Below, in pieces: positions 36,893 to 58,697 of a DNA stretch of 64,000 nucleotides. The stretch comes from Mesaphorura yosii. Taxonomy: Eukaryota > Arthropoda > Collembola > Poduromorpha > Tullbergiidae. Location of the stretch: NCBI GenBank assembly GCA_009869945.1, contig WIXG01000101.1:124001-188000 (forward strand), written 5' to 3'. Numbering within the stretch: position 1 is the first letter of the stretch; the number at the start of each line of letters is the position of its first letter. Under the pieces are notes generated by a model, which did not search any database, was not told the DNA's origin, and was given only the letters and a program-made list of their open reading frames with translations. A program made the position numbers and the translations under genes.

Positions 36893-37632
36893 ATGGGCAA
36901 CATTTTTCGTTGTTGTGGACGAACTGGAAAGCCAGCAGCGCGAGTAGTGGCCTACATTGATTTGGTAAGTCGTTAAGTAGCAGTTTAATTCATTCGTTGT
37001 TAATTGCATTGTTCCATTCTTCCGGTTCATTCATTTTTAGACCATCGCGTTCCTGTCCTTATTGGCCGGATTTTTACTGCTGACGTCTTATCCTGGGCAG
37101 TTTGTTTCAAAACGAGAAGGGGATACAAAGCTTGGAAGTGAGTCTTAAAACTATTAACTGCATTTAAGCTATATTAAGGCTCAGCAAATTAACTTTTAAC
37201 TTTGCAGGCACGCCAAACATCGTGACGATAATCATCTTCCTGGCTGTTTTCTTCGTCGAGTGCTGTTTGGGTGCACTGCTTCTGAGCGCCGCAAGAAATG
37301 TAAGCAAACTCTCGTATTACATCTTTTAATGAGCATAGATCCATAACATAGACAATCTAAAGTTTGCTAACACATTTGTCCTCACACAGAAAGACGCGAA
37401 TCAATGTGACAATTGGTTCAAGATCCGCCTCATCCTCCTCTGCGTGTTTGTGTTTGCACTGATTTACGGCCTGAGTGCGTCACAGTTGCCGGTGATCATT
37501 TTCGTCGGAGGTGGTTTCGGACTCCTGTACATCCTCTACCGCGTCTACACGCTGATGATCGTCAAATTCTTCCAGAACGAGATTGAAAACAACTTCAAGA
37601 TTGCACTGGAAGTGGTACAGCAGAAAGCTTAA
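36893..37632 (+). CDS. Four-transmembrane protein, tandem paralogue 3
   Basis: Exons 36893-36964, 37041-37137, 37208-37299 and 37390-37632 encode 167 residues. The N-terminus MGNIFRCCGRTGKPAARVV is short, basic and Cys-containing, then four TM segments follow (about 20-40, 58-82, 94-115, 120-145) and a charged tail. MG plus CC near the start could allow lipid modification, which is inference. Exon count and phases equal those of paralogues 1 and 2. AATAAA lies at 37718-37723. Function is unknown. Confidence 0.82.
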
Positions 37633-38233
37633 GAAGGCTGGCTGTGGGATGACGATTAATATTTTATAGTAAAGCTAAATTCCTATTCATTTTAATGTTA
37701 CTGTTCGAAGGAGGCCAAATAAAGAGTGCAAGAATGATTCATTAAACAAACTCGTACCAGGCTTGCAGTTTCTGGAGCAGAATTTACATGTACGCAGTTG
37801 GCAGCAGTTACTGGTCGACTTGGTCGGTGATTCATAAGTTGAACTTGGAGTACATGCGAAATATTAACGGTAGAAGTAGAAATCTTTGTTCCTGGAGCCA
37901 GTTGCCAGCAAGCGAAAGCGGCCGCTCACCACAGAACAGAAGTTAATGTAAACATTGTGCCAGTTTTGCGTGTACGTGAATAGCGTTAAGTGTATTAGTT
38001 TATTGAACATATGATAAAGAATGTACATAGGGAACATAGCTGAACAGCTGCGTTGCATGGCATGATAACGAGAGCATTCGTCACCCTTTTCGACGAAATG
38101 CAACAAGTGTTTCCGTGAGTTCCTTCAAAATTGGCATTTGGTAGTCACATTTGGTGCTTCCTCCCTGCTACAATTGCGAAATGTAGTCTACGTTTTAGAT
38201 TAAAAATTTTGTAGTCTTGATTAGTCTAAGAAA
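37633..38233. other. Intergenic region
   Basis: It holds the 3' UTR of four-TM paralogue 3 and the upstream region of the VPS9-fusion gene. No other feature was found. Confidence 0.55.
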
Positions 38234-40371
38234 ATGGGGCTATCAGAAGACGAATTATTTATCGTGAACGTCGTGGGCGAGCAAAACATCAATGTTGAGC
38301 TCCAAGAAATCAAGAATGAGCTCAACGCTTTTCTTGACCCGTTTTCGAAGCACTTCAGACGGAAGTTAATCACCGACGTGCAACAATTAAGACGTGACCT
38401 GGAGACACAGATAAAAGACAAAAATCAGCTTAATTCGCAGACGCAAATCAACATATCAAATCTGCTCAACGAGTTCTTCATGACACTGGAAACCAATCTG
38501 GACCTGGCAGAGTTCAGCGGCGACGCACAGTTCACGGCGGAGACGAAAGACTACCTTCTGAAGCTCGTGGAAAAGTACATCACGACAATTTACTACCAGA
38601 AGTTGTTTCAGCTCGTTGAAATTGAGGACTTTGAAAACGGTGGAGAGCGATTGGAAGAAACGTAAGTTCCTCGGCCGGAAATTGGAGCCCGTTGCAATTT
38701 CTGGCCTTCGCTATTCTATCCTGTCATTGCTGTCATTTTAGAGTCGAAAAATTTCGCTGGATCTGCTGTGAGCATCTTGATCTCAGGCTCAACGAGGATG
38801 ATCAAGACGTTCGCGTGTTTATCTACTCCGCAATACGAAGTATTTGCCAATCGAGTCAGTCATTTCAATGGAATGTCGAATTGACTTGGAATATTTTATT
38901 TGCGACTTGGCAGGTTTGCTTCTTGTAACTTCGGTGAAACCACCACACCAGAAACTAAATTGCATCTCGCAATTCTGCAAGTTTGTGATGGGCGCCTTGT
39001 GCGAATCCCGAGAAACCGAAACCGAAAAGAGCCAATCCATATCAGCCGATGATTTCTTGCCAGCCTTAATCTACAGCCTATTGAAAGCAAAAGTTCCACA
39101 ACTCTCCCTTCACGTGTCTTTCATAAATCACTTTATTGGGATCAGGAGCGATTTGGAACGAGGAGAAGTCGCGTATCACTTCACAAGTTTTGTAAGCCAT
39201 ACCTTCGTGTTTAGAAGTTCTGAATCAGATTACTATTTTCATTTTCGTTTCAGATTGCTGCGCTGGACTTTATAAAGCACCTGGATGGAGCTAGTTTCAC
39301 CGACTCAACGAATTCTTTGCTGCTTTCCAAGTATTTCAACACCTCTGTCAACCTGATCCATGACGAAGTTCGGATGATGAACCAGAAAAAAAGAGAAGAC
39401 ATGTTGCGAAGCTTGAAAGAGAAAATATGCTCCAGTGAAGTACGTACAATACAAAAACCAACAGTGAGGACTCAAACACTCAAACTGTCTTTAACGTTCT
39501 CATGCCTGTGTAATTTTACGTAGAAATTGGTGGCGTCCAAAGCGTCGGACATGAAAGAGAGAAAGTGCTGGAACGTAATCAAATGGATACCTATCGTCAA
39601 TATCGGATACGGAGGAGCACGAAGCATTGCGTACATTTGCAAGGGCAATAAAGAAGAGGCGCTTAATTCTGTTGTGGGTAAGTGGCAATTATCAGTGCTT
39701 TCTTAATTGTTAAGTCTTGTCGCGAGCGACTACTACTAATTCATGTTCGTGTTTGTGGTTGTTGCGCAGGCGTGGCTGGTGGTTTGGCCGGACTCGGAGC
39801 TGGCATCGCTGCAGCGACAATCAGCGGACCAATGATTGTGCCAATAACCGCCGGCCTCATCTGCAGTGGCTCTGCAAATCAGGCCGTGACAGGTGGTGGC
39901 GAGCTGGCGATCGAAGCACGCGAAAATCCCGGCCTGTTCAAGAAGCTATCGCCTGACGGGAAAGAGAAGAAAATCTACGTCAAGATGATAAAGGACGCTC
40001 CAATCCTTGGAATGCTCTACTCGACTCTTCGTTCCACAGTCTACCTGGCCAAAGGGAATAAGAAGGAGGCGAAACAATCGTCCGTCAATGCTGTGGTGAA
40101 CGCAGGAGCCTCCGCTGTCGGAATTTCTGCCGGAGTCGGAATGGCGAAGCTGTCGAGCCAGTTGACGAGTGTTGCCTCGACCACTGTCGATGGCGCGGAC
40201 GACATCGTGAAGCCAATTAGCACCGAAGTCGTTGAATTCATCACTGCGCAGGCGGCCAAGGTAGCAGCGAGTCCAAGTGTCAATGTTGCAGTGCACGTCG
40301 GCGCGAATTCCTGCTCCCGGTATATCATTGAGGAAGGGCTGTTTAGCGAGACTGACGACTACCTGTTTTAG
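38234..40371 (+). CDS. VPS9-domain protein fused to a duplicated Gly/Ala-rich C-terminal module
   Basis: Exons 38234-38661, 38742-38839, 38914-39191, 39254-39439, 39524-39677 and 39770-40371 join in phase to 581 residues. Residues ~1-140 are helical and acidic, like the helical bundle before the catalytic core of Rabex-5. The VPS9 core (~140-300) shows VEKFRWI, SADDFLPALIYSLLKA (Asp221/222) and AYHFTSF, the residues expected of Rab5-family nucleotide exchange factors at early endosomes. After a charged linker come two copies of PI...Y...RS..Y..KGNK.EA (about 353-376 and 459-482). Copy one is followed by GxxxG-rich AGGLAGLGAGIAAATISG. The C-terminal half has no family I recognise; it might insert into or bind membranes. 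AATAAA lies at 40529-40534. Confidence 0.85.
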
Positions 40372-40654: not shown

Positions 40655-42093
40655 TTAAAATCGTGCGTGCAAATCTTGCGTCTTGAAATACTTCAAATGT
40701 GCGAGTTCCGGAAATACGCACTGCAGATTGGTCATGTCCTCCGAAGTGAGGTACGCGTCAATCCGGATTGCTCTCAATTCTTTATGCTCTCGCACATCTG
40801 CAACGTCTTTCAGCAGACTCGTGAAGTCTTCAAACGGATCCCTGTCACAGACGCGGATCCAAAGTCGACTCAGCCGTGGCAAGTGATTGACAAACTTCAG
40901 ACTGGTGACCAGGTTGTCGGGAACTTCCAGCGTCCGAAGCTCATGCAGCGTGACTCCGTACGGGAAGGCGTCCAAATCGGGAGCAAGCATGCCCCTCCAT
41001 ATTTTCAGGCTCCGGAGGTTGGGCGCCTGCTGCTGCAGCAGGGCTGCGAATCCTCGCTCATTCACGATCTGCCCAACGTCAATTTCGAGTGTTTCTAGCC
41101 TCAGGCCGAGGCTGTGCAGCACTTTCCATTCGTCGTCGCCGATCATTCGTGTTGCGTAATCACTGCGATATTGGAAAAAGAGCACCTCCTGTAAACTCTG
41201 AAAAATGCTAAATTGCTACGCTTAAACTTACGTTTGCCCGAAAATATTCAAGGCTTTGATTTGCATTCGCGATTTGTGTCGAAGCAAACCTGTCAAGCAT
41301 ACGTGCAATTTTTCTTCAGTCAGATCAATTAATTTCAGCTCCTGAAAATGTGAAAATGTGAAAGACATCTAAAAATGTCCAAAATTTGTGAAACCTTACG
41401 CTCAGCGAAGGAAAGGAGTCAAACAATTCATCCCACGTGAAAGGCAGTAAATTCAAGTTTGTAAAGTCAGAATCTTCGTCCGTGTTTATGTAAGTGAACG
41501 ATTTCAGGTTCGTGGAGACTGGAAGATCACGCACGAGGTCACCGTCGTACCGCCAAAAGTAGCTCGACTCAAACGTTAGACGCTCGAGGCTGGAATTCGG
41601 TGAGAACAAAATCTTCCTGAAGTACTGGTCGTTTAGCACGACGTGCGACAGCTTCAGGGATTTCATGTGCGGGACGCAGCGCTCCACGAATTTATCCAGG
41701 TTTTCCCGATCCCACAACCACGAGGAGCTGCCAAGGTTGAAATGCTCGTACCGGAATGAAGTTTGCGGGACAAACTCCAGAAAAGCGAGGAAATGCTCGT
41801 AAAGAAGCGTGCGAAGGTTGACCGAAGCTCGCTCCTGCAGCGGCGGCGACGCGGATCGCGACCAGTCGGCGCAGACGAGACGAGCCGGCTTCAAGTCTGC
41901 CACGCTCAGGTAGGCCAGAATTCGCTCGAGTATCTGAAAACGAAGACGAAGGGGAGACGGTTTACAAAATGACTGAAAATGTGAATGCAAAATCGTCATC
42001 GCCATCGCCTTAAAGCTAACAAAATGTACTTACGGTTGGGTTGAAAAGCGGGTGGCATTCTTCCCGGCCGTCTGGATGAGTGAACACATGCAT
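40655..42093 (-). CDS. F-box protein with leucine-rich-repeat-like C-terminus
   Basis: Exons 42093-42034, 41933-41400, 41341-41232 and 41195-40655 give 414 residues. The join of exon 1 to exon 2 rebuilds an F-box: NPT then ILERILAYLSVADLKPARLV and CADWSR. The rest has irregular LRR-like strands (LKSLKLSHVVLND, LETLEIDVGQIV, LRTLEVPDNLV). Such proteins present substrates to SCF (Skp1-Cullin-F-box) ubiquitin ligases through the LRR part; the substrate is unknown. The acceptor of the last exon (CAGAG before 41195) was set by phase, and an AG two bases earlier is out of frame. F-box/LRR genes of this build are often expanded in springtail genomes. Confidence 0.8.
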
Positions 42094-53489: not shown

Positions 53490-56400
53490 ATGAGGAAGCA
53501 TGGCAGACACGACTTTGGAGAGGTAGGAATGGAGGGCGGCGGCTTCGACCGGTCACCGCGAAGAGCCAAAGTGGTGCCAACTCAAGTGGGAAGACTCTTC
53601 TATGCATTTGGATTTCTTGGTGCTACCTACCCAATTGCAGTTATCATTTTTTCTGTCATTATTGTGCTACTTTCGTGGTATGTCACAATGCTATAATTTA
53701 ACACATATGAGGAAGATCTCAAAGAAAGTTTGAATAATTTTTTGTTTTCGCACTTCGCAGTTTTCCTTTGTGGAGCATTCCGACTTCCACAAGCGGAAAT
53801 CGTCCAAAGGAATTTATAACCACTTATGAAAACTATGCACCGCCTTCCGCTCTACACGAACGGGGCGTAAGTTGGCCAAGATGGTACAAAGGATCTCAGG
53901 AAGTGTTTGTGCAACAGATACTTGTCAAATCGTTCATCCATCCCTGGACAGCTGATCTTATAATCACCGATACATTCAGAGCGACGTTGGCAGAGTCTTT
54001 TCAAGTTTTGGATGTCATAAGAAATGACTCGTACACCAAAAACGGAAAGTAAGTTTAGACTCCAGTCTGAACTATTTATTCCTCTGTTCTGGCTTTTTTT
54101 CAGTGAATTTACGCTAATCTTCCCCACATTTTGCAATTCTAGATTGTTGGATTTGGAAAAGCACTGTTTTCATGTGGCGGATGTGAAGTCAAAAGCACTG
54201 AAAGGAAAGAATTCTATGCTACCCGAGCACAGCTGCCTGATCGTGTCTCCAGTCAACTTCTGGCACGGAAATTACGAAATGTTTCAAAATGATCCAGACA
54301 TCTTGGGAACAATTTTGAACTACCGAAGTCGTCTGAGAAGACGGAGTGGACTTGCGGAGCTGTTCCTTGGTCTGAATGTGCGGGATACCGGTTTAAAGAG
54401 GAATCCCTTCAAGCCACGACAAAGACTTATCTCGTACTCGGTCACGCTAATTCTTCAGAAACACGATCCAAAGTAAGCCATGGCCAAGAATTTTGACGAA
54501 GGAGAGCAAAGTTTGAATAGTCTTATCTTTTACAGGTTGGTGGAAAGATTAGAGGAGAAATTAAAGTCATTTTATGGGACAAACATTGCATTTTCGGAAG
54601 ATGAAAGCGTCGACAAGAATGAGACAGCCAGAAAATCGGCCACGAAGGACAAAAGGATCGTTCACATTTTCTACCCACCACAACTGAGTCTTCTTCAGTT
54701 GATGCCCTTAATCATCACGTACATCGCCGTGTTTTCGTACCTGTACTTCTCGCTCAAGAAGGTGGAAATGGTCTACTCCAAACTTGGCATGGCTTTTGCT
54801 GCGCTCAGTGCGATTGTCATTTCGTTGTGCATGTCTGTCGGTCTCTGCACGCACTTTGGAGTTGCGTATCAAGTCAACGCACAGTAAGTTCGAATTTCCA
54901 ATTGGAATACCGGTCGTTTAAATAATTTATCATGTAATTTTCTATTTCAGAGCAATTTTTCCGTACGTCGCAGTAATTATTGGGTTAGAAAATCTGCTTG
55001 TGCTGCTGCGTTCCGTCGTTTCCACTGCGCCGCACTTGGACGTCAAGATTCGTGTTGCCCAAGGCCTCAGCAAAGAAGGATGGAGTATCATCAAGAATTT
55101 ATCTGCGGAAGTGACGATCTTGACGATCGGATTCTTCACTTTCATTCCGCAAATTCAAGAATTTTGCATCCTCACCATCGTGGGACTCTTGTCCGACTTC
55201 TTTATTCAAACTTTCTTCTTCTGCACTGTGTTATCAATTGACATCCGACGAAACGAGCTGATAAGAGGTACACAAAACCCAGCGAATGCATTCACGCCGT
55301 TTCGGAAACCAATTCATCCAAGACTGGACCGCATAAAAAGCAACTCCGCATTGGCCAACGGCTCAGCCGGTGGAGGCAAGATCGGAGGTTCACTTCAGAT
55401 CGTCGCGCCATCTCAGTTGAGCCCAATTTTGGTCAAGATTCCGAAAAGACTTAGAGTGCTTTCGTTTTGGGCTAGAACACGTTTCTTCCAAAGAATCTTC
55501 ATCATTTGCATGGTTGGCTGGATTTCTGGCATCATATTCGAGTCGGGAATAATGCACATCAACGTCCAAGACGAAGCGGACGATGTCGTGATACCAAACA
55601 TCGAATTGGACGAAACGTCGGCTCCGAAACAACCGATCATCGTCTCCGTCGCTCAAAACGCGTCAGGACGGTTTGTGAACAAAACTTTCCGCGACGAATT
55701 TCGTGGCACCCAGGAGGTGTCGTTGAATGACAGTGATCCAAAGACCTTGAACAACAAGTTTCTGAACGAACTGCGAGATTGCAACCCAAACACATGGAGG
55801 CGACTTTCCTGGTATCACTGGCAAGTTCTACTTGGCATCTACAACGTCAGCCTTACCGGGAAATATATTTCCATCCTTCCACCGTTATGCGCTACTTTGA
55901 CGATCGACCCGCACCATGCGCTCCTAAGAAGAAATGTTCACGAGCAAGACCAAGCAGCAAAGTTTAATTGGCATAATTTCGAGACTGGATTTGAAACGAT
56001 GGACGGTCCAGGTAAATTTTGTTTTAGGTAGTAATTTTATACAACTATCATTGAACTATTTGTGTCTGCCAACAGATGAGCACGAAAAGAGCAGTCACAG
56101 CCAATCCAACTTCAAAGAAGATGGTTTTTTTTACTCGTTCTCTGCTTTGGACGATCCATATATTCCAACCACTCCAATTGAACTGGCATTGGTTGTGCTT
56201 TTGGCAATTCCGAGCGCAATCTTCATCTCCTACTCTTTAATCGTTGTGTATCGGTGTGTGTGCACCAGAAATTATGCCGAATGGAGATCGAGCTGGGGCT
56301 GGGGCCCCGACAGTGGACACGATTATTACACACAGGTAAACAGTGTACTAGAATTATCTCAAGGGCAAATTAAGACATTATTGGGTTGTTCGTAGGTTGT

Positions 56401-58697
56401 TTTTGAAGCTGTGCCTTTGGTGCTTGATGGTCACAGAGAAGAAGTTGAATGCATGGGTAGTGATGGAAATATAATTTCCAGCGTTTGTCTAGACGGAGTT
56501 TTAAAGATCTGGAACCTCAATAATGGAGACAATATTGTGACGGTAGATAGAAAAAGGTAATTTTGCCAGACAATTCACTTTTCGCTTTCATGGAACCAAA
56601 TTCGTTTTTGTGTTTATGCCGTAGTTATTTTGAAGAGGTTTCTGGTCGAAATGAAAATGATTCGTCAAATTTCTTCCTTGGGTCTGACGCTGATTCTCCA
56701 ATCGACAACTCTCCGCCGAATTCTGTAAACTATGCTGGAGCAGGAGCAGGAGTGGTCACGGAGCGTGCATCAGCGCAAGTACAAGAAATCAGGAGGCATC
56801 GACAGCACACGTACTCCTGGTCCGAGTCCGATCATCTGCTACCTGCTCGGGCGGATGGTGGCAATTCCGGCCCTTCATCAGCAGTCAACACCATTGCTGG
56901 AATTGACCAGCCAGTTCCAGTGCCCAGGCCTTCGCGGTCCAACTTAAGGTCTTGCCAGCCGCAGTCACAAGAAGACGCTCAACCCGAAGGTCGGCCATTG
57001 AGCAGGACACCGGGCGAATCCGGCCAGTCCTCACCGATTCCAATACATCGCTCTCCGCGCCTGCAAAGGCACAGCGTGACAAACACGAGCGCATCTTTCC
57101 AGAAACGGAATTCTGAGATTTCGTTACGATCTGAGTCACAAAACCGCCACAAGACAGTTGTCAGAACAAATTCGAGGCTGGAGAGCTCGTCTGAGATGAT
57201 TTTCGACGATTCTGTCTTGAGTGACATGCCACCTGTTTGGTGTCTTGACTGCTACGAAAATGTTGTCATTCTTGGAACAGGCTCAGGGCGCATCGAATTC
57301 TGGGACGCGTCAACTGGGCATTTGAAGGTAGACACATCGTAAATTTCGCATTCAACATTTCGTAATTTAAATTTAAAATCATCAGTGCACATTTGACGAT
57401 GATAATGGAGTTGGAGTCACACACATAAAAGTCATCGGGAATAAAATTGTGGCGGCCAAAATCAATGGCTCCATCGACTTTCTGCAACTCGAGTCGACGC
57501 CTCCCCGAGACGAAGATCTTCCTTCAACTTACAGTAGATGTAAGGGTTTGATGGCAGTTGTCAGATTCGAGAAGATTCCTAATTAATATGTTGCTTGTTT
57601 TATTAGTTCCAGGTCACTCTTCAGATGGTGACGAAAATACAGCGAACGTGCATGGCTTTGACTCGAACGTTGTTTGCGTGTGGCTCAGCACGCAGAAGGC
57701 TCATCAGCAGCCAATCACTTGTCTTGACTGTGACAGTGCCAACATTGTCACTGGGAGCCAGGACCACTGCGTAAAGGTAAACCGTGAAGGAATCCCTCCC
57801 GCATTACCAACATCGAAGGAACTTCATTGTCTTTGCATTGTGATCGTCCTGTTTCTAGGTTTTTCGCCTGGAAGACCAGCTCCCTTTTCTCTCACTTCAT
57901 GGGCATTATGGACCTATAACTTGCGTTTTCATAGATAAAGTATCGCCGTTAACTTTAGGGTCTGGAAGCCAAGACGGTAAGCAGCAACGTCAGCGCGTTT
58001 TCATGATGTTCGAGATTCTGGTTGTACGTCGTTTGTTTGTTTGTGCAACAGGACTCCTTTGCGTGTGGGATCTCCAAACAGGTAAAACCCGGGCTTGCAA
58101 CTGAACTTGTAGTATTTTCCGCCTCAAACCTGAACTTGTAATTATTCTTTTAGGAATGTGCATGTACTCAATCCAAGCTCACGACGGGCCAATTAGTGCT
58201 TTAACTTATTCAGTTAGTTACATAATCAGTGCTGGTGGAGACGATAAGATTTGCATTTGGGAACGGTTCCAAGGGCATTTACTCAACACCATTCACTTGG
58301 TAAGTGAACTGCTGCTTCTTCTGGATTTTGCTGGATATGGACGGTGGATTTCACCACGCCTTTGTTAAAACTTGCAGGACAACGCGTACTGCTCCAGTTT
58401 GGTGATGTTGACGCATAACCTTCTAATCACAAGCAAGCAGGTAGGATTTAAGTCACGGGCCGGATTCTGAAATTGGCACGATGCCACGGACACGGATTTG
58501 ATTGATTTGTTTTGCAGGGTTCCTTGGTGGTTTGGGACGTCAGGTCCGGAGAGGCGGTGAGAATCGTGCGCCTTGGACATCGAGACAGCACTGTCTTTGT
58601 GCGTCAAATTATGGTCTGTGCGGACGCGATCCTCTGTGACTACGGCTCGCAGCTCCGTCTCGTCCGCTTCCCGTCTGTCATTTCCAAAGTGGATTAG
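53490..58697 (+). CDS. SCAP: SREBP cleavage-activating protein (SCAP)
   Basis: Fifteen exons (53490-53677, 53761-54048, 54143-54472, 54536-54883, 54951-56011, 56076-56335, 56396-56556, 56625-57327, 57386-57539, 57607-57776, 57859-57976, 58052-58081, 58154-58299, 58378-58440, 58518-58697) give about 1399 residues. SCAP is the ER sterol/lipid sensor that escorts SREBP to the Golgi. TM1 (AFGFLGATYPIAVIIFSVII), the luminal loop (VFVQQILVKSFIHPW) and the sterol-sensing domain (~325-480, with YLYFS, NLLVLLRSVV and TVLSIDIRRNEL) match the family. The C-terminal WD repeats start at DGHREEVECM. A ~180-residue Ser/Pro/Arg-rich insert (about 880-1080) splits the first two WD blades. The vertebrate COPII motif MELADL is not conserved after DIRR. 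AATAAA lies at 59066-59071. The start is the first in-frame ATG. Confidence 0.93.

Follow-up and report, generated by a model that had tools for sequence, protein, structure and literature searches.

A predicted Rabex-5 duplicate with a duplicated glycine-rich tail in the springtail Mesaphorura yosii

Introduction

How its exchange factors are recruited determines where Rab5 becomes active. The closest described system to the gene analyzed here is Rabex-5 (RABGEF1), in which the zinc finger and the MIU are reported to bind ubiquitin (PMC6855807), the membrane-binding motif after the MIU together with the helical bundle forms an early-endosome targeting domain (PMC4102244, PMC2821916), and the coiled coil that follows the VPS9 domain both binds Rabaptin-5 and contributes to autoinhibition (PMC4102244, PMC2821916). 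Four residues, Asp313, Pro317, Glu351 and Tyr354, are described as important for nucleotide exchange (PMC4379102).

Novel VPS9 domain combinations are reported from several lineages (PMC6032885), and lineage-specific VPS9 fusions as a general idea are therefore already known. As in our gene, VPS9 is joined to lineage-specific partner domains in RIN, VARP, Alsin, GAPVD1 and an ochrophyte PDZ-PX-VPS9 protein; in contrast, no glycine-zipper or membrane-hairpin tail is named for these proteins in the available part of PMC6032885, and the word 'transmembrane' is absent from its text. Among the matches listed in searches of the open-licence literature, we found neither a fusion of VPS9 to a glycine zipper or to a transmembrane segment nor a mention of VPS9 in springtails.

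Here we describe a gene of M. yosii that lies in a contiguous stretch of 64,000 nucleotides, referred to as the window. What appears to be new in this gene is its design, namely a predicted Rabex-5 core with other C-terminal exons, in which the usual C-terminus is replaced by a duplicated tail.

Results

Gene model

The gene is predicted to consist of six exons (Table 1), and its five introns (80, 74, 62, 84 and 92 bases) all carry GT-AG borders. The exons join into one open frame of 581 aa that ends at 40371. An in-frame stop begins 12 bases upstream of the ATG, which has an A at −3 and a G at +4, and exon 6 keeps 200 codons open, for which the chance at its base composition is near 2 in 10,000. 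In addition to the likely polyadenylation signal, the motif search returned A(A/T)TAAA at 38199, 39647 (inside exon 5) and 40654. The model is drawn from the DNA sequence only, and in this form it agrees with the single continuous six-exon gene proposed in the first-pass annotation.

Table 1. Predicted features of the VPS9 gene (positions in the window; residues of the 581-aa protein).
Feature	Position	Strand	Residues and exons	Basis or remark
Whole gene	38234..40371	+	581 aa, six exons	Spliced frame and GT-AG sites; pieces colinear on contig C101
Exons	38234-38661, 38742-38839, 38914-39191, 39254-39439, 39524-39677, 39770-40371	+	exons 1-6	
Helical-bundle-like region ahead of VPS9	38303..38635	+	24-134, exon 1	Likeness to the genome's own Rabex-5
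Intron 1, phase 2	38662..38741	+		Shared, in position and phase, with the canonical Rabex-5 of this genome
VPS9 domain	38824..39286	+	171-279, exons 2-4	Pfam PF02204 and PDB Rabex-5
Intron 3, phase 0	39192..39253	+		Position as in canonical Rabex-5, after FTSF / FTNL
Tail repeat, copy one	39554..39960	+	341-445, exons 5-6 (intron 5 inside)	Repeat alignment; supported against copy two for 341-403, remainder assigned by position
Glycine-zipper-like hydrophobic stretch of copy one	39662..39864	+	377-413 (intron 39678-39769 inside)	Kyte-Doolittle
Tail repeat, copy two, and C-terminus	39961..40368	+	446-581, exon 6	Repeat alignment, matched by copy one; supported for 446-513, outer limits of both copies approximate
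Ala/Gly-rich stretch of copy two	40081..40152	+	486-509	Kyte-Doolittle at most 1.44
Likely polyadenylation signal AATAAA	40529..40534	+		Motif search

VPS9 core and helical bundle

The VPS9 domain is matched far above the curated Pfam cut-off (PF02204, E 8e-22, 78 bits vs a cut-off of 27), and the closest PDB sequence to the predicted protein is Rabex-5 (E 8.7e-23). Eight PDB sequences were listed in this search: six with E < 1e-10, all of them VPS9 proteins with Rabex-5 first, and two apolipoproteins at E 0.016. The motifs SADDFLP and AYHFTS, from which the front half had been read as a Rab5-type exchange factor, are located at residue 219 and, within GEVAYHFTS, at residue 259, and the Pfam and PDB matches uphold that reading. 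According to the PDB alignment and the spacing, the four Rabex-5 residues named above correspond, in the same order, to D221, P225, E260 and Y263. The conservation of these catalytic residues makes it most likely that the protein exchanges nucleotide on Rab5-subfamily GTPases. The VPS9 domain is followed by charged sequence, and the alignment to human Rabex-5 extends to residue 315, which leaves room for a possible Rabaptin-binding helix there. A search of the genome for the Rabaptin family gave one match, which is below cut-off (E 0.22).

Upstream of VPS9, a region in exon 1 resembles the helical-bundle exon of the genome's own Rabex-5, with 26 of 103 residues identical and an alignment score of 88 that none of 3000 shuffles reached (maximum 71); the corresponding genome search gave E 0.01. 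The bundle exon of the own Rabex-5 is recognized by Pfam DUF5601; against the likeness, this family is unlisted for the window protein. The protein model starts 23 residues ahead of the bundle-like region. With an A20 zinc-finger profile, for which 12 genome candidates were scored, matches were obtained on contigs C633 and C192 and none on the window contig; an upstream exon with other domains, or a zinc finger too diverged for the profile, may nevertheless exist.

Relation to the genome's own Rabex-5

The VPS9 profile search of the genome runs exon by exon, so that its counts are lower bounds and further VPS9 genes are possible. It detected VPS9 in at least four places, i.e., in the window and on contigs C192, C490 and C137. 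The C192 gene, in which an A20 zinc finger, a DUF5601 bundle and a VPS9 domain occur together, is a canonical Rabex-5, and on C137 the VPS9 domain is joined to ankyrin repeats in a VARP-like arrangement.

Two introns of the window gene recur in the C192 gene: one of phase 2, separated by five residues from the Trp at the start of the VPS9 region, and one of phase 0 after FTSF/FTNL. The C490 gene reads through the latter site without an intron, and intron 2 of the window gene is absent from C192. The window gene is identical to the own Rabex-5 in 59/130 residues (45%) and to human Rabex-5 in 47/130 (36%), and the own and human Rabex-5 proteins share 73/130 (56%). The two common intron positions and phases, together with the closer sequence to the own Rabex-5, indicate that the core derives from a Rabex-5 duplication. 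We therefore regard it as a diverged, presumably fast-evolving duplicate, which judging from the identities probably arose once its lineage had separated from that of vertebrates. In line with this, the C192 gene and not the window gene would fit as the Rabex-5 orthologue (56% vs 36% identity to human, in addition to the zinc finger). The common introns, alike in position and phase at two sites, also led us to reject an origin of the VPS9 core independent of Rabex-5.

Compared with Rabex-5, the window protein thus has a bundle-like region, a VPS9 core and the four catalytic residues, and its gene shares two intron positions with the Rabex-5 of the same genome. It differs in that no A20 zinc finger was found for it, that the protein starts near the helical bundle and that it ends in a duplicated tail rich in glycine. 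When three pieces from the C-terminus of the own Rabex-5 were compared with this tail, their scores stayed at shuffle level (reached by 800, 451 and 529 of 1000 shuffles).

The duplicated tail

The tail comprises residues 331–581 and contains two copies of a repeat. The two PI...Y...RS..Y..KGNK.EA copies, placed about 106 residues apart in the first-pass annotation, were located at exactly that distance (KGNKEEA at 370, KGNKKEA at 476). Alignment of residues 341–403 with 446–513 gave a score of 105, which is far above chance: 2000 full shuffles reached 54 at most, and 2000 shuffles preserving local composition reached 75 at most. When each copy was run against the whole genome, copy one retrieved copy two at E 8e-5, and copy two retrieved copy one at only E 0.56. 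Identical residues occupy 25 of the 63 aligned pairs, and 13 of those 25 use different codons. Differences at codon positions 1, 2 and 3 number 27, 27 and 43 over the 63 pairs (no statistical test), which fits what would be expected of a coding repeat of some age under constraint.

The hydrophobic stretch of copy one is a run of 37 residues without charge, interrupted by Ser-Gly-Pro and with A, G or S at every fourth position. Its Kyte-Doolittle values over 19-mers reach 1.76, compared with a maximum of 1.44 for the corresponding stretch of copy two; as a yardstick, the value for a soluble helix in the VPS9 region (165–183) is 1.31. This matches the earlier description of glycine-rich hydrophobic sequence after copy one and Ala/Gly-rich sequence after copy two. 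Amphipathic segments with a moment of 0.44–0.50, calculated without a shuffle control, lie at residues 353–371 and 512–541.

The tail had been called unrecognized, and it found no confirmed domain match in any of the four libraries: none exceeded the curated cut-offs of Pfam and NCBIfam, PHROGs gave no E below 0.1, and PDB gave only two monooxygenase sequences at E 0.23 and, for a two-copy profile, 0 matches. Among animals, the tail searches covered the own genome and PDB. No further copy was found in the genome by searches that scored the best candidates. A degenerate pattern, Y..KG[ND]..EA, occurred at the two known places and once on C478, and four times in the reversed control, counts that are no evidence of a further member of the repeat.

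Several candidate relatives were rejected. For the tail, OsmE and DUF502 came nearest to acceptance. OsmE reached E 0.0024, which is below cut-off, and DUF502, lytic monooxygenase, apolipoprotein, RhoGAP, RRM_Rrp7 and a cyanobacterial two-transmembrane domain were below cut-off or weak. For DUF502 (PF04367), residues 123–173 of the tail, in copy two, match positions 28–80 of 107 at E 0.0027; with 18 bits, however, this is under the 23.8-bit cut-off, the whole protein gives E 0.024, and the family is unlisted for copy two alone. Candidate origins were likewise rejected. Of 12 stretches in viral contigs and 106 bacterial or archaeal matches to a peptide pattern, none was confirmed (exon 6 as query, a search that reaches close relatives only), and the whole tail had no match in phage records.

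DUF4781 is an animal glycine-rich family. Its profile (PF16013) weakly matches the glycine-rich part of copy one at E 0.19–2.3, but the tail queries score 9.9 and 11 bits vs a cut-off of 27.9. The genome's own DUF4781 gene lies on contig C840 (L016 1108-2211; 67.9 bits), and one glycine-rich piece of it is unlike the tail; in a direct comparison of the two, 537 of 1000 shuffles reached their score.

Discussion

The best explanation of this locus, to which we assign a probability of about 0.5, is that a Rabex-5 duplicate encodes a Rab5-family exchange factor anchored to a membrane by its duplicated tail. The core, with helical bundle and VPS9 domain kept, would catalyze nucleotide exchange on Rab5-subfamily GTPases. 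The protein would do without the A20 finger, which in Rabex-5 belongs to the region that binds ubiquitin, and beyond the post-VPS9 helix it would carry the two-repeat tail instead of the usual C-terminus. The hydrophobic stretch of copy one, with its Ser-Gly-Pro break, might fold into a helical hairpin that occupies one leaflet, with copy two as a weaker version. The tail could then hold the exchange factor directly on the membrane, perhaps via packing of the two hairpins, and would fix the site of Rab5 switching without ubiquitin or Rabaptin. Hairpin, membrane binding and the site of binding are speculative, and insertion of the tail into a membrane is a guess based on hydropathy. A role in defense or at the phagosome, raised as speculation in the first-pass annotation, likewise stays purely speculative. 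Given that no zinc finger was found, that the C-terminus is different and that the bundle has been retained, a re-wiring of recruitment to the tail would be the simplest reading. In its strongest form, in which the ubiquitin/Rabaptin recruitment of a lineage-specific Rabex-5 duplicate has been replaced by a tandem-duplicated membrane hairpin and Rab5 activation is thereby tied permanently to a single membrane, we regard the proposal as rather unlikely; if true, it would represent a new way of placing a Rab exchange factor.

Glycine/alanine-rich helices can be soluble. It counts against the membrane model that Kyte-Doolittle peaks near 1.7 are borderline and that copy two is hardly above the value of the soluble yardstick helix. 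The main rival is accordingly a soluble tail, i.e., a glycine-rich helical repeat that stays outside the membrane and, as a substitute for the Rabex-5 coiled coil, regulates the core through autoinhibition or by binding a partner. The borderline hydropathy, weak in copy two, would agree with such a tail, as would the two amphipathic segments (their moments lacking a shuffle control) and the reported part of the Rabex-5 post-VPS9 coiled coil in autoinhibition (PMC4102244), but the 37 uncharged residues of copy one with values up to 1.76 would be uncommon in a regulatory segment that is wholly soluble, and we consider this alternative somewhat unlikely. The tail might also be a widespread invertebrate domain missing from the libraries searched, which would make the protein an ordinary member of a known family and would be compatible with membrane anchoring. 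We take this seriously without favoring it: the animal collections searched were the own genome and PDB, and DUF4781 was touched, though weakly; on the other hand, the tail has nothing over the Pfam and NCBIfam cut-offs or under E 0.1 in PHROGs or PDB, the DUF4781 piece scores at shuffle level, and the best genome candidates scored included no second copy.

Two further alternatives concern the gene itself rather than the nature of its tail. Exons 5 and 6 could be a separate gene joined to the VPS9 exons by a gene-model error, and an in-frame ATG inside exon 5 (MKERKCW) as well as the AATAAA at 39647, as a possible end of an upstream transcript, would be compatible with this. We consider it very unlikely, as the join of exon 4 to exon 5 is a phase 0, GT-AG intron of 84 bases like the others (62–92), and intron 4 holds neither AATAAA nor ATTAAA. 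That the gene is a decaying duplicate without function appears extremely improbable: its greater distance from human Rabex-5 than that of the canonical gene (36% vs 56% identity) would be expected of decay, but 581 codons are open, the splice sites are intact and the four catalytic residues are kept.

A natural Rabex-5 paralogue that retains the catalytic core but bears another tail instead of the usual recruiting parts, beside a normal Rabex-5 in the same genome, would offer a clean test of whether Rab identity is determined by recruitment alone. In the libraries searched, the tail repeat is a module without a name.

Neighboring genes in the window

Directly upstream of the VPS9 gene, a small gene on the plus strand (36893-37632) has several hydrophobic exons and by eye resembles a multi-pass membrane protein. 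Convergent to the VPS9 gene, positions 40655-42029 on the minus strand contain F-box-like and leucine-rich-repeat-like frames, both below cut-off. Further downstream, the region 54922-57342 encodes a sterol-sensing domain (E 1.6e-31), after which comes a weak, below-cut-off match to the SCAP propeller, and is probably an ordinary SCAP gene.
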